Positions 1,863 through 55,776 of a stretch of 64,000 nucleotides of DNA are shown here, piece by piece. Source of the DNA: Pseudomonas alkylphenolica (lineage in GTDB: Bacteria; Pseudomonadota; Gammaproteobacteria; Pseudomonadales; Pseudomonadaceae); the NCBI RefSeq assembly GCF_000746525.1, contig NZ_CP009048.1, positions 4,405,501-4,469,500 on the forward strand, read 5' to 3'. A model generated the notes under the pieces. The model searched no databases. It saw nothing but the letters and a program-made list of their open reading frames with translations, and had not been told where the DNA came from. A program made the translations under genes and the position numbers. Each line of letters opens with the position of its first letter. Positions within the stretch are counted from its first letter, which is position 1.

Positions 1863-2774
1863 TCAAGTGCGCTGTTGTGCTCGTTTCAGCGTTTCGCTGG
1901 GCAATTCCTTGAACAATTGCTGGTAGCTGCTGGAGAACCGTCCCAGGTGCCAGAACGACCAATGCATCGCCACTTCGGCCACGGTACTGCCACCCGCCCG
2001 CGCGCCCAGCAGTTCGCGGCGCGCACTGTTCAGGCGGCGCAAGCGCAGCCAGTGCGCCGGGGTCATGCCGGTAAAGGCCTTGAAGGCCTGCTGCAGCTGA
2101 CGCAACGACACCCCGGCGACCTGCGCCAGTTCCAGCAGGTTGAGGGTCTCTTCCGGACAATCGGCAGCCCACTCGCCGACCCGGCGCATGATCGTGCGCT
2201 CCTCGGTACGCCGCCACAGCGCGCCGCGATCCAGGCGGACACAGGCGTTGTCGAGAATGAACAGGCAATCTTCAAGCAGTTGCTCGGCCAGCGCTTCACG
2301 GTTCGGCAGGTCGCTCTCCTGGCCCAAACGCGTCAAGGTGCTGCTCAACCAGCGCCCGAACAGCGCGTTCTGCCCCGAATTGAGCGGCGCCATGAACAGC
2401 CCTTCGAGACGGGCGATGTCCAGGCTGTGACGCTGAACGAACTCGGGGCCGAACACCACCGCCACTTCCTGGTAGTTCTCCGGGGTGATCCAGATGTTGC
2501 GGCTCTCGCCGTTGAGCAGGTACAGGGTGTTGTCGGTGCGATCGAAACAAAACGCCAGGGCACCCGGCGGCGCACTGAAATTCTGCTCGACCCGGGTGTT
2601 CATGAATTCTTCGTAGATCTCCACGCCCTGCAGGTCCAGGCAACGCACTTGACCGGCGAAATGTCCGGGCGACATCTGCTGATAATGCTGGGTCCAGCTG
2701 GGTGTGGCACGCACTTGTTCGCCGACGTCGGCGGTGCTGAAAGCTTGTACCTGAAACGGACTTTCCGTTGTCAT
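1863..2774 (-). CDS. AraC family transcriptional regulator
   Basis: A 303-residue regulator with an N-terminal ligand-sensing region and a C-terminal AraC double helix-turn-helix (about residues 200-300; LLELAQVAGVSLRQLQQAFK, then TPAHWLRLRRLNSARREL and WHLGRFSSSYQQLF). The start was placed at the ATG preceded by AAAGAG rather than at an ATG 22 codons upstream, because the longer N-terminus is basic and lacks an SD. It is divergently transcribed from the glutamine-synthetase/polyamine-type cluster that begins 173 bp away, so it probably controls that cluster; its N-terminal half resembles the EutR-like subgroup, suggesting an amine ligand. The target and ligand are inference. Confidence 0.85.
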   Translation of the reverse strand: MTTESPFQVQAFSTADVGEQVRATPSWTQHYQQMSPGHFAGQVRCLDLQGVEIYEEFMNTRVEQNFSAPPGALAFCFDRTDNTLYLLNGESRNIWITPENYQEVAVVFGPEFVQRHSLDIARLEGLFMAPLNSGQNALFGRWLSSTLTRLGQESDLPNREALAEQLLEDCLFILDNACVRLDRGALWRRTEERTIMRRVGEWAADCPEETLNLLELAQVAGVSLRQLQQAFKAFTGMTPAHWLRLRRLNSARRELLGARAGGSTVAEVAMHWSFWHLGRFSSSYQQLFKELPSETLKRAQQRT

Positions 2775-2947
2775 GAGCGGCTCTTTATGCACTCTTTTGG
2801 TGCATTTTATCCTGCGAAAAGTGGATAGATGGATGTTCAAGGCTCACCCAAGATAGACCTCAACGCGCTGCAGGGGAAGTCGTCCAGACGGCATACCGGC
2901 CTTGATCGCTGGTCCTGGCGCGGAATAAAACCAATAACGAGGTCTTT

Positions 2948-5444
<2,497 letters not shown>

Positions 5445-52555: not shown

Positions 52556-52984
52556 TCAGCGCTGCAGCGCGCGTACATAAGCCTGACAGGCCCGCAAGGC
52601 GATCAGTCCCCGATCACCGCGGTCGGTGATGGCGATAATTCGTCGAGCATGCGCTGGCTCAAGTCGGGCGCGTACGGGGTCATGATCCAGGCCGCCGGTG
52701 GCGGGGGCGGCAGGCACACCGGAGACGGCGTCGGCGCCAAGGAGGACTGACAGCCGTAAATCAGCAGTGGCAAGACGGTCACGCAGGCGCGCTTGAGTCT
52801 GTTGCGCATCGAGTAACTCCTGATAATGGGATTGATCGTTGGCCTGGATCTGCTGCTCCAGCACCTGACGCTGCTGACGCTCGCCAAGCGCCTGGCTGGC
52901 CAGGGCTTCGGCCAGTTGCTGGCGCTCCTGGGCGTGGGTCCGTGCCTGCTGCGCCAGTTGCGCGCTATATCGCCATGCCTGAGC
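52556..52984 (-). pseudogene. Truncated i-spanin Rz (prophage/tailocin lysis gene relic)
   Basis: The minus frame reads WRYSAQLAQQARTHAQERQQ, a long polar helix (QANDQSHYQELLDAQQTQAR), then DRLATADLRLSVLLGAD and the spanin-like tail ARRIIAITDRGDRGLIALRA, all typical of phage Rz. A TAG (52985-52987) replaces the expected N-terminal transmembrane anchor, so the gene is broken at its 5' end exactly where the excisionase-like gene begins on the other strand. A GTG at 52864 could give a 102-residue fragment without anchor. Rz normally joins the inner membrane to Rz1. The gene points toward pncC, as in tailocin lysis cassettes of fluorescent pseudomonads. Confidence 0.78.
52603..52809 (-). CDS. o-spanin Rz1-like lipoprotein nested within Rz
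   Basis: A 68-residue frame inside the Rz relic in a different reading frame: MRNRLKRACVTVLPLLIYGC is a lipoprotein signal with lipobox and Cys20, followed by a Pro-rich stretch (CLPPPPPAAW), exactly the Rz1 layout. Nesting inside Rz is the hallmark of spanin gene pairs. The reading frame is intact but its partner lacks its anchor, so it is probably non-functional in lysis. Confidence 0.75.
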   Translation of the reverse strand: MRNRLKRACVTVLPLLIYGCQSSLAPTPSPVCLPPPPPAAWIMTPYAPDLSQRMLDELSPSPTAVIGD

Positions 52985-52999
52985 CTAGCGCGCTGGGTA

Positions 53000-53173
53000 A
53001 TGATCAAACGTGCCGCCGAACTTACTGGGTACAGCGAAGACGCCATCCGCCACAAAGTGAAGGATGGCACCTGGGCACAAGGCCGCGTCTGGCGCAAAAC
53101 TCCGGACGGGCGAATCGCAATCAACATGGCAGAGTATGACAAATGGGCCGAGAGCGCATCACAAGTGGCCTAG
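53000..53173 (+). CDS. Excisionase-like small DNA-binding protein
   Basis: A 57-residue reading from ATG 53000: MIKRAAELTGYSEDAIRHKV and RVWRKTPDGRIAINMAEYDK match the DUF1233/excisionase pattern of small winged-helix proteins beside phage integrases. Family members usually start a few residues earlier (an in-frame ARWV precedes the Met), so the native start may have been lost at the junction with the Rz relic. It overlaps the integrase start by 31 bp, showing translational coupling. Confidence 0.75.
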   Translation: MIKRAAELTGYSEDAIRHKVKDGTWAQGRVWRKTPDGRIAINMAEYDKWAESASQVA

Positions 53174-54399
53174 AGGCCGAGCTGGCAAAGCACACCGGCA
53201 TTGAGATTCACGGCGGTAACCTGCGGATCGTCTTCATGTGGCGCCGCATACGCTGCCGTGAGTCTCTCGGCCTACCGGTGACCAAAGCCAACATCAAACA
53301 TGCCGCCCTGCTCAGGGCGGCAATTCTTCACGAGATCAAGCTGGGGACCTTTGAATATGGCCGTCACTTTCCCGACTCAAAGCACGCCGCGAACTACAGC
53401 AGCGCCAAGGACGAACGACTGAGCGTACTGGTAGAGCGTTACAAACCTCTGAAGGCAGTGGACATCACTCCAATGACCGAGGAAAAGTATGGCTATGCCT
53501 TGGACATCTGTGTCGAGCTGGTCGGCAAGGACCGCCTCGCTGGCATCTTGCTGCCCGAGGACATACAAGCGCTTCGCGCTCAATTGATCGAGACCCGGGC
53601 GCCGTCTACAGCCAACCATTACCTTGCTACGTTCTCCGGCTTCCTCACCTGGTGCGAGAGCAATGGCTACTGCAGGAGCGGACTCGCTGCGGCATGCACC
53701 CGGTTTGCCATGAGCGAAAAAGAGCCCGATCCGCTCACCCACGACGAATTCGACCAACTCCTCACAAAAGGGTGCCTACACCCACAAGACAAGGCGGCGA
53801 TCACGCTTGCCGTCTACACCGGCCTACGCCTCGGCGAATTGTGCGCACTGGCCTTGGAAGATATCGACCTGACGACCGGCAGGATCGATATCACTCGGGC
53901 CATCACCGCCACCGGCACCTTCAAGGTCCCCAAAACCGGCAAGCCGCGAACCGTACTGCTGATGCAGCCAGCGATCGAGGCGTGCGAAGTTCTGATGGGC
54001 ATTGTCGCTGGACACCCGAAGCGGCAAATCCGGGTGTACCAGAACCGCCATGAATGGCGGGACGAGTCAGTCATCCCCCTTCTATCACCTGGTACCCAGG
54101 CAAGGAAACGGGTGATCAACGTGTGGTTCGTGTCAACCGCCTGGAACACGAAGTGGGCCGCAATCCAGCGCCGCGCCGGGATCCGGGCCAGGCGACCGTA
54201 CCAAACGCGCCACACCTATGCATGCTGGTGCCTCACTGCTCGCGGGAACCTAGCATTCATCGCCAAACAAATGGGGCACAAAGACTTCACCATGCTTGTT
54301 GAGGTCTATGCAAAATGGATGGATGACGAGTCACCGACAGAACTGCAGCACATATGGACAGGCATTCGATTGCAAAGCACAAGAAATACCCGCCCATAA
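53143..54399 (+). CDS. Tyrosine-family site-specific integrase
   Basis: A 418-residue phage-type integrase. N-terminal arm-binding domain resembles DUF3596 (GLEAELAKHTGIEIHGGNLR), then a core-binding SAM-like domain, then the catalytic domain with all key residues: Arg229 (TGLRLGEL), Lys264, Tyr353/Arg356 (PYQTRHTYA, Tyr in place of the first His as in many phage members), His379 (GHKDF) and Tyr389 nucleophile. It overlaps the excisionase gene. It looks intact. The attachment sites are not proved; arm-like GTGGGGC repeats occur at 55.5-55.75 kb. Confidence 0.93.
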   Translation: MGRERITSGLEAELAKHTGIEIHGGNLRIVFMWRRIRCRESLGLPVTKANIKHAALLRAAILHEIKLGTFEYGRHFPDSKHAANYSSAKDERLSVLVERYKPLKAVDITPMTEEKYGYALDICVELVGKDRLAGILLPEDIQALRAQLIETRAPSTANHYLATFSGFLTWCESNGYCRSGLAAACTRFAMSEKEPDPLTHDEFDQLLTKGCLHPQDKAAITLAVYTGLRLGELCALALEDIDLTTGRIDITRAITATGTFKVPKTGKPRTVLLMQPAIEACEVLMGIVAGHPKRQIRVYQNRHEWRDESVIPLLSPGTQARKRVINVWFVSTAWNTKWAAIQRRAGIRARRPYQTRHTYACWCLTARGNLAFIAKQMGHKDFTMLVEVYAKWMDDESPTELQHIWTGIRLQSTRNTRP

Positions 54400-54400
54400 C

Positions 54401-54430
54401 AAAAAGCCCGGCATATAGCCGGGCTTTTTG
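54401..54430. terminator. Hairpin after integrase (bidirectional), copy 1
   Basis: AAAAAGCCCGGC-ATATA-GCCGGGCTTTTTG. With A and T runs on both sides it can end both integrase and the convergent minus-strand cargo. Nearly the same hairpin recurs at 55366-55394. Confidence 0.9.
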
Positions 54431-54445
54431 TTGTGGGATTGCAAA

Positions 54446-54622
54446 TCAGCACATCATGACGGGCTTCTCAATACCCAGCTCTGCGCAAGCATCCTTCAGG
54501 CTCTGATCAGCCTCTTGGAAACGACGTACGCGGGCTAGGGTGTAGTCGCGACCACTCAACCCGTCTTTACGAGGGGTCGTGGCATGCTTTTTCTGATACT
54601 CACTAGCGCTAAAGCTTTTCAT
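54446..54622 (-). CDS. 58-residue basic protein of unknown function
   Basis: MKSFSASEYQKKHATTPRKD followed by GLSGRDYTLARVRRFQEADQ and a C-terminal LGIEKPVMMC. The sequence is Lys/Arg-rich with one predicted amphipathic helix (YTLARVRRFQEADQSLKDAC). The ATG is preceded by AAGGAATCAGGTC. It starts 16 bp after the ClpP-like gene on the same strand, so it is probably the second gene of that unit. No family recognised. Confidence 0.6.
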   Translation of the reverse strand: MKSFSASEYQKKHATTPRKDGLSGRDYTLARVRRFQEADQSLKDACAELGIEKPVMMC

Positions 54623-54638
54623 GACCTGATTCCTTTCC

Positions 54639-55292
54639 TTATAAGGGAATAAAGCAATCTTTGTTGCTTTGATATGCTTCCAACATGTGCTGCAACACAT
54701 GTTTATACGTTGCCTGCGGCGTTGAGAATGTCGCTGTGTGAATCCCATTGAGGCCAAGATGATCGAGGTAACGATAGAACAGGTCATCAAACATATCTAC
54801 CTGTTCGCGAGCGCTATCTCGGATCGTTTTGTTCTTGAAGTCATCAATGAAGCAGTAATAGTCGCCATCTGGCCATCGCGGGCGGTGATACATGAGCACC
54901 GCAGGCTTCAGAGGATTAACAGAAACAACGCGACCTTCGCCTGGGTCATTCGCAAGGTTGACCGGGTCGAGGGCGAACCACAACCAGAGCACTGCGGCGC
55001 AACTCATTGCAAACCTGCCAACCGCAATCTCAACGTCAGCATTGGTACGAGCCAGAGCTTCAATGAGGTCCTGCAGCTGACCGACGTTCCCACCAGGATT
55101 TGCCCGCAAATAAATACGGATCTTTTTTCCAAGCGGAGCGTCCTGCAGCATCTGAATCAGAGGCCCTACTGACGCTGGGTCAATGCAGGTCAGCTCTACA
55201 GTTTCCCTGTCATCATTCTTAACGACATGAAGCTGTGACATCACAGACTCAGCAGCAGTTCCATCCTGCTCGGCGATCGCACCTACTTCCAT
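54639..55292 (-). CDS. Divergent ClpP/SDH-fold putative serine peptidase (mobile-element cargo)
   Basis: A 217-residue protein whose core aligns by eye with the ClpP/crotonase superfamily: oxyanion-hole strand and glycines in IRIYLRANPGGNVGQLQDLI (residues 58-77), VEIAVGRFAMSCAAVLWLW with candidate nucleophile Ser97, and VVSVNPLKPAVLMYHRP with candidate His136 where ClpP has its MIHQP His. The AMSCAA block is closer to the SDH/SppA-like AMSAGT pattern than to classic ClpP AASMGA. A 14-residue insertion lies between Ser and His; the Asp of the triad could not be placed with confidence. A good SD (AAGGG, 7 nt) supports the start. AT-rich codon use compared with neighbours suggests transfer. Role unknown; proteolysis is inferred. 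Confidence 0.65.
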   Translation of the reverse strand: MEVGAIAEQDGTAAESVMSQLHVVKNDDRETVELTCIDPASVGPLIQMLQDAPLGKKIRIYLRANPGGNVGQLQDLIEALARTNADVEIAVGRFAMSCAAVLWLWFALDPVNLANDPGEGRVVSVNPLKPAVLMYHRPRWPDGDYYCFIDDFKNKTIRDSAREQVDMFDDLFYRYLDHLGLNGIHTATFSTPQATYKHVLQHMLEAYQSNKDCFIPL

Positions 55293-55365
55293 GAGTGACC
55301 CTTAAATGACACGTTCTTTGCAAAAAGCCATTCAGAATAATGGCCATTTGCCATCTATACAGTCG

Positions 55366-55394
55366 AAAAAAGCCCGGCTATAGCCGGGCTTTTC
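55366..55394. terminator. Hairpin bordering the cargo module, copy 2
   Basis: AAAAAAGCCCGGC-TA-TAGCCGGGCTTTT, nearly identical in stem to copy 1 at 54401-54430. Confidence 0.85.
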
Positions 55395-55692
55395 GATCAT
55401 TCCTAAAAGTCAAACAGGAACGATGGAATGCGCGAATGTTCGGTCATGCGGCCATTTGATGTCAAGCAAAGCTTTGTGACACGACACATTTAATGGCAAA
55501 AAATTGATCTAAGTGGGGCGAATCGAATAGCTAATCGGCAATGTGACCCGGCTACGGTGGTGCGTGTGCCGCCTCTGCACCCGTGTTAACCTACGATCTT
55601 GCGCAAAATGGGAATGTAGGGACTCACCAATCAGGTGACACAGAATTTGACCAGGGCCATACGCGCCGTGGCATTTAGACCTGCAAATCGCA

Positions 55693-55730
55693 AAGCAGAA
55701 AGCAGAAAGCAGAAAGCAGAAAGCAGAAAG
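55693..55730. repeat. Tandem 7-bp repeat upstream of mutS
   Basis: Five perfect tandem copies of AAGCAGA plus a partial sixth (AAG), ending 46 bp before the mutS ATG. Short perfect arrays like this change length by slippage. Confidence 0.9.
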
Positions 55731-55776
55731 CCCCAAATTTGCCCCACAATTTTGAGACAGTCGCTCTAACCACCTG

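Follow-up and report, generated by a model that had tools for sequence, protein, structure and literature searches.

Within a 64,000-nt stretch of the Pseudomonas alkylphenolica genome (NZ_CP009048.1; hereafter the window, in whose positions all coordinates are given), the remains of a prophage carry two adjacent genes, encoding a 217-amino acid (aa) putative serine peptidase with a predicted ClpP fold and a basic protein of 58 aa. The two genes are consistently found together, form a terminator-bounded unit and are rare, patchy and mobile; in architecture the unit is that of a moron, i.e., cargo that may be expressible independently of the prophage. We give about even weight to the overall reading that this mobile moron combines a ClpP-fold serine peptidase with a basic binding partner and protects the lysogen from other phages, and its defence part, taken alone, is held with less confidence.

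Pairing of the peptidase gene with a small basic partner

The peptidase gene (55292-54639, minus strand, ATG start) is followed, after a gap of 16 bp (54638-54623), by the partner gene (54622-54446, minus strand, ATG start, product net charge +3), whose ribosome-binding-type sequence is AAAGGAATC. This open reading frame (ORF) check bore out the layout of 217 aa, 16 bp and 58 aa given in an earlier sequence-only reading of this DNA. Twenty-seven further loci were fetched, giving, together with the window, 28 loci (23 distinct pairs once exact duplicates and the truncated L038 were removed), and in all 28 an ORF of 52-67 aa lies near or overlaps the stop of the peptidase gene, mostly with a ribosome-binding-type sequence. 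The encoded partners are basic, carrying a net charge of +2 to +7, with Met1 and one Gly as the only invariant positions over 17 diverse sequences; the protein of the window has a variable N-terminal half and a conserved C-terminal half ending with G-I-E-x-P-x-M.

The peptidase is present in seven of 398 same-genus genomes, and a 17-row partner profile found exactly these seven, the two genes being adjacent and on the same strand in each. Neither an orphan peptidase nor an orphan partner was found in the 398 genomes, of which the surveys scored the best few candidates each (seven for the peptidase and 16 for the partner), so that misses are possible. Recall of the partner is by construction in five of the seven genomes, where their own or an identical partner is part of the profile; the remaining 391 genomes, in which no orphan turned up, are not affected by this. 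The co-occurrence is independent of three loci with faint partners (L012, L030, and L068). Furthermore, the distance matrices of the peptidase and the partner correlate (r = 0.93; maximum of 0.39 in 2000 permutations), which is equally explained by inheritance as a unit or by binding; the most distant measured peptidase, that of L030, is 26% identical to the one of the window.

As a control, a nine-row profile of window-type partners was run against every frame segment of 40 aa or more from the 28 loci (6381 in total), and the 22 best segments were partner ORFs without exception. Ten window-type loci match this profile by construction or nearly so; in the 18 other loci, four partners scored at E <= 4e-8, five at 0.014-0.025 and three at 0.15-0.59, those of L034 and L038 fell among the background, and those of L012, L030, L037, and L068 were missed. 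A 15-row profile, which itself contains some of the partners, recovered 25 of the 28 at E <= 3e-13; L012 scored E 0.22, and L030 and L068 were not recovered, hence their partners are assigned by position only. Against four close relatives (L001, L002, L003, and L020), the dN/dS was 0.061-0.085 for the large gene and 0.037-0.130 for the small one, and three divergent relatives (L004, L005, and L007) yielded no ratio for either gene (no dS). In a database of 5.8 billion proteins, the large protein has 41 relatives at E <= 1e-3 and the small one 15. The idea that the small ORF is a chance frame is ruled out by dN/dS, profile ranking and co-occurrence. Thus, the 58-residue frame is conserved with the larger gene, as the sequence-only reading had required, and its question whether the pair co-occurs beside integrases finds a positive answer in the joint presence in 7/7 genomes and the integrases adjacent to the pair at many loci.

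Fold and active-site residues of the large protein

The 217-aa protein is predicted to have a ClpP/crotonase fold, as had been proposed from the sequence alone. Among the structures compared, ClpP is the fold match of its structure model, with an identity of 13-18% in structural alignments, and its score with PF00574 is 12.6 bits, under the Pfam gathering cut-off of 20.2. Among relatives whose source names were shown, all are called "hypothetical protein" except two, i.e., P0078 ("Clp protease/crotonase-like domain-containing protein") and P0067 ("ATP-dependent protease ClpP protease subunit").

The alignment of 107 peptidases (including some duplicates; 74 retained by HH-suite) revealed 15 positions invariant in 107/107: N65, G67, G68, S97, A99, H136, P138, R139, F148, F168, D169, F172, Y207, N210, and D212. 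The N-P-G-G, A-M-S (Ser97) and M-Y-H (His136) blocks named by the sequence-only reading were all found; the glycines of its oxyanion-type PGG motif (N65-x-G67-G68) are among the invariant residues, but the Pro varies among relatives. The Ser-His-Asp triad that it named is supported in its first two members, which a weak profile alignment places on the Ser and His of ClpP (local hhalign E 0.0065, probability 5.8%; the ClpP side comprised 24 of the 30 ClpP loci, the motif filter having missed six, including the host's own L027); the global hhalign against ClpP aligned three columns. The third member is less certain: the same alignment puts the acid position of ClpP at K197/H198 (H198 is present in 102/107), while the invariant D169 sits inside the long helix of the structure model. 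Together, the weak profile alignment and the helix boundaries of the model may point to K197/H198 rather than to D169, itself still a candidate, at the place of the ClpP-type acid. A divergent branch of 185-188 aa (P0097, P0098, and P0099), informative for the choice of the third catalytic residue, lacks the H198-equivalent and keeps a nearby His, and a subfamily of 183-aa peptidases starts at the first core strand.

In agreement with the earlier claim that no ClpX-type ATPase lies nearby, no AAA_2 match above the cut-off lies closer to the pair than about 117 kb. The host carries one clpP by PF00574, which, with an adjoining AAA_2 gene (clpX by position), lies about 0.55 Mb from the pair.

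Terminators, expression and mobile context

In the window, an intrinsic-terminator hairpin (54393-54437) separates the pair from a convergent integrase gene, and a second hairpin (55366-55393), 82% identical to the first, is located upstream of the peptidase gene, leaving a leader of the pair at 55293-55365 on the minus strand. The two hairpins are likewise alike in L002 and L003, with a distance of 964-965 nt (965 start-to-start in the window). A consensus terminator scan of the window did not list them, probably since in both the stem extends into the T-tract; other hairpin searches showed both. Terminator and promoter tests covered 21 of the 28 loci (L011, L021, L022, L024, L025, L035, and L038, mostly near-copies of used loci, were omitted). 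A terminator-type hairpin lies 3' of the small gene in 20 of them, the exception being the Vibrio plasmid, and another one precedes the peptidase gene in seven; the background was 25 of 840 random windows from the same loci.

Upstream promoter-like scores of the 21 leaders sum to 180, compared with 156.6 +/- 4.4 in shuffles (maximum 170), and TAGAAT is present in eight leaders vs. about one expected; taken singly, only the leader of L028 beats 95% of its own shuffles. Leaders of close relatives have a -10-like TATGAT/TATTAT box. The leader in the window is without this box and scores like its shuffles, and the standard scan called no promoter for the pair in the window, therefore the pair may be weakly expressed there.

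The prophage remains lie between cinA and mutS. Apart from the pair, they comprise an Rz-like spanin remnant (52559-52981, minus strand) of the otherwise missing prophage, an excisionase-like gene (52826-53173, plus strand; its product matches excisionase PHROGs from about residue 52 onward) and a tyrosine integrase gene (53143-54399, plus strand, an open 418-aa frame). The Rz-like remnant is 52% identical across 144 aa to the Rz protein of L001, which matches Rz PHROGs. Short AAAGCAG-type tandem repeats (55685-55733) were observed directly upstream of mutS.

The link of the two-gene unit to integrases and mobile DNA, proposed by the sequence-only reading, is supported: among the 28 loci are prophages of Pseudomonas, the record of a P. 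aeruginosa phage (OQ658367.1), a Vibrio campbellii plasmid and a Pantoea conjugative plasmid, the gene tables of the two plasmid stretches being incomplete and without phage structural genes. An adjacent integrase is convergent with the pair in L001, L002, L003, L005, L006, L007, L021, L034, L036, L037, and L038, and in L004 and L029 it lies upstream of the pair and codirectional with it; in L028 a DNA methyltransferase takes the convergent place instead, and in L030 a replication protein does. In L002, L003, L005, L007, L020, and L021 the pair stands beside mutS, and in L020 it is still intact next to an integrase cut to residues 236-409. In L007 a second copy of the integrase 3' end (residues 375-412) stands between mutS and the pair (924-1037; integrase at 2207-3478), so that the pair is flanked by two integrase 3' ends; the duplication may be an att site, or may have been left by repeated integration or by cassette exchange.

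The neighbors were annotated in part, and the following contexts are examples, not enrichment. In the phage OQ658367.1 (L011), the pair is located between an annotated antitermination protein and a holin, and its near-copy L033 has a Q-like match at the antitermination position; the deposited annotation of the phage lacks the peptidase gene (L011:14201-14857) and lists the partner as a hypothetical protein of 70 aa with an earlier start. DNA methyltransferases, which are common in prophages generally, were found near the pair in L006, L029, and L036. In L030 the pair lies between the portal and replication genes of a P2-like element, and the corresponding spot of P2 (old, tin) is described as an anti-phage system hotspot (PMC9122126). 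Type I restriction-modification genes lie about 2 kb from the pair in L022, and a LeoA-like dynamin beside it in L037.

In a class-wide sample, three of 369 genomes gave a match, i.e., the source genome itself and two judged to hold more distant Clp-like proteins (L070 and L071), which were not counted, and the protein database adds peptidase relatives in Aeromonas, Vibrio, Enterobacter, and Aliivibrio. Neither protein matches any PADLOC (2023) family at E <= 1, and membership in a known defence system was rejected on this ground. No description of such a pair was found in the literature searched (mostly titles and abstract starts, from a collection poor in subscription journals and lacking bioRxiv preprints).

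Proposed role and comparison with known systems

We infer that the first gene encodes a peptide bond-cleaving ClpP-fold serine peptidase, in which Ser97 would be the nucleophile, His136 the base and N-x-G-G the oxyanion strand, and that the basic protein of 52-67 aa most likely binds it as an adaptor, gate or regulator, probably via its conserved C-terminal half. With a terminator of its own and a promoter-like site in many relatives, the unit could be expressed in a lysogen whose remaining prophage is silent, and the pair would then protect this lysogen (defence or superinfection exclusion) by cleaving a phage or host target in a limited way. Anti-phage protection is the leading candidate role because the pair is rare and mobile, persists in wrecked prophages and in some cases occupies defence-type positions. 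For the small protein, the most probable part is that of a dedicated adaptor, gate or inhibitor, although the evidence fits a substrate as well. More tentatively, and with a probability that we put low, the pair could represent a new anti-phage class, in which a ClpP-fold serine peptidase without an AAA+ unfoldase is targeted or switched on by a dedicated small basic protein docking via its conserved C-terminal half; the triad might then be Ser-His-His instead of Ser-His-Asp.

Other explanations were weighed against this protective role. The peptidase may be a phage subunit hijacking the host Clp system, which joins or caps host ClpP and redirects host proteolysis, the small protein acting on ClpX/ClpA as adaptor or inhibitor. 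Since no dedicated ATPase lies near the pair, host unfoldases would be needed here, and both the structural match to ClpP and the single host clpP are consistent with it; however, the similarity to ClpP is very low (13-18% structural; 12.6 bits vs. 20.2), and the 183-aa subfamily is without the axial-loop segment, which in ClpP precedes the first core strand, and we regard hijacking as unlikely. Ranked just behind it is a toxin-antitoxin-like stability or abortive-infection pair, consisting of a toxic peptidase and its small inhibitor. The adjacency of the genes, neither of which occurs alone in the 398 genomes, their presence on plasmids too, and the near-constant size of the basic partner would suit such a pair, but the peptidase gene comes first, the reverse of the commoner order with the antitoxin gene before the toxin gene, and a PADLOC match is absent.

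The position between the antitermination gene and the lysis genes in L011 and L033 may suggest, in turn, a phage developmental regulator, whose peptidase cuts a repressor, an antirepressor or a late-stage phage protein, with the small protein as substrate or cofactor. This seems quite improbable, and the least likely of the three, as the pair is intact where the prophage is nearly gone (the window and L020), resides on plasmid stretches without phage structural genes in their gene tables and takes different positions in different phages.

ClpP-fold proteases are normally linked to ATP-driven unfoldases or phage capsid maturation. A mobile ClpP-fold enzyme with one tiny protein, ranging from Pseudomonas prophages to Vibrio and Pantoea plasmids, is a tractable two-gene system for studying the targeting of such an enzyme that has no ATPase of its own, and it is a candidate prophage defence unit absent from the PADLOC models searched. 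The peptidase relatives reach Aeromonas and Enterobacter, the pairing itself having been surveyed at the 28 loci and in the 398 same-genus genomes.

Compared with known systems, the pair resembles P2 old/tin-type exclusion cargo in position, L030 lying at the gpA-portal spot within a P2-like element, and differs in lacking a PADLOC match of its own. With the SDH-family Clp-fold serine proteinases (NF047768), the 217-aa protein shares a weak match across the Gly-Gly/Ser segment, but at 11.5 bits vs. the cut-off of 250 the "SDH" label of the sequence-only reading is not supported. Phage head-maturation proteases (NF045542) are likewise phage-encoded, ClpP-type and weakly matched; this identity was rejected, as the score of 16.7 bits is far under the cut-off of 120 and the gene lies outside the head module, and OQ658367.1 has a separate "putative Clp protease" between its portal and head decoration genes. 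ClpP itself (S14; PF00574) has a catalytic Asp before the last helix and works as a tetradecamer with an AAA+ unfoldase. The peptidase of the pair differs from it in low identity, a sub-threshold Pfam score, the lack of a nearby Clp ATPase gene, an acid that may be D169 or be replaced by H198, a variable or absent N-terminal segment and a small partner gene, whereas it is alike in the predicted fold, the Ser/His positions (by the weak profile alignment), the N-x-G-G strand and the long helix after the His.
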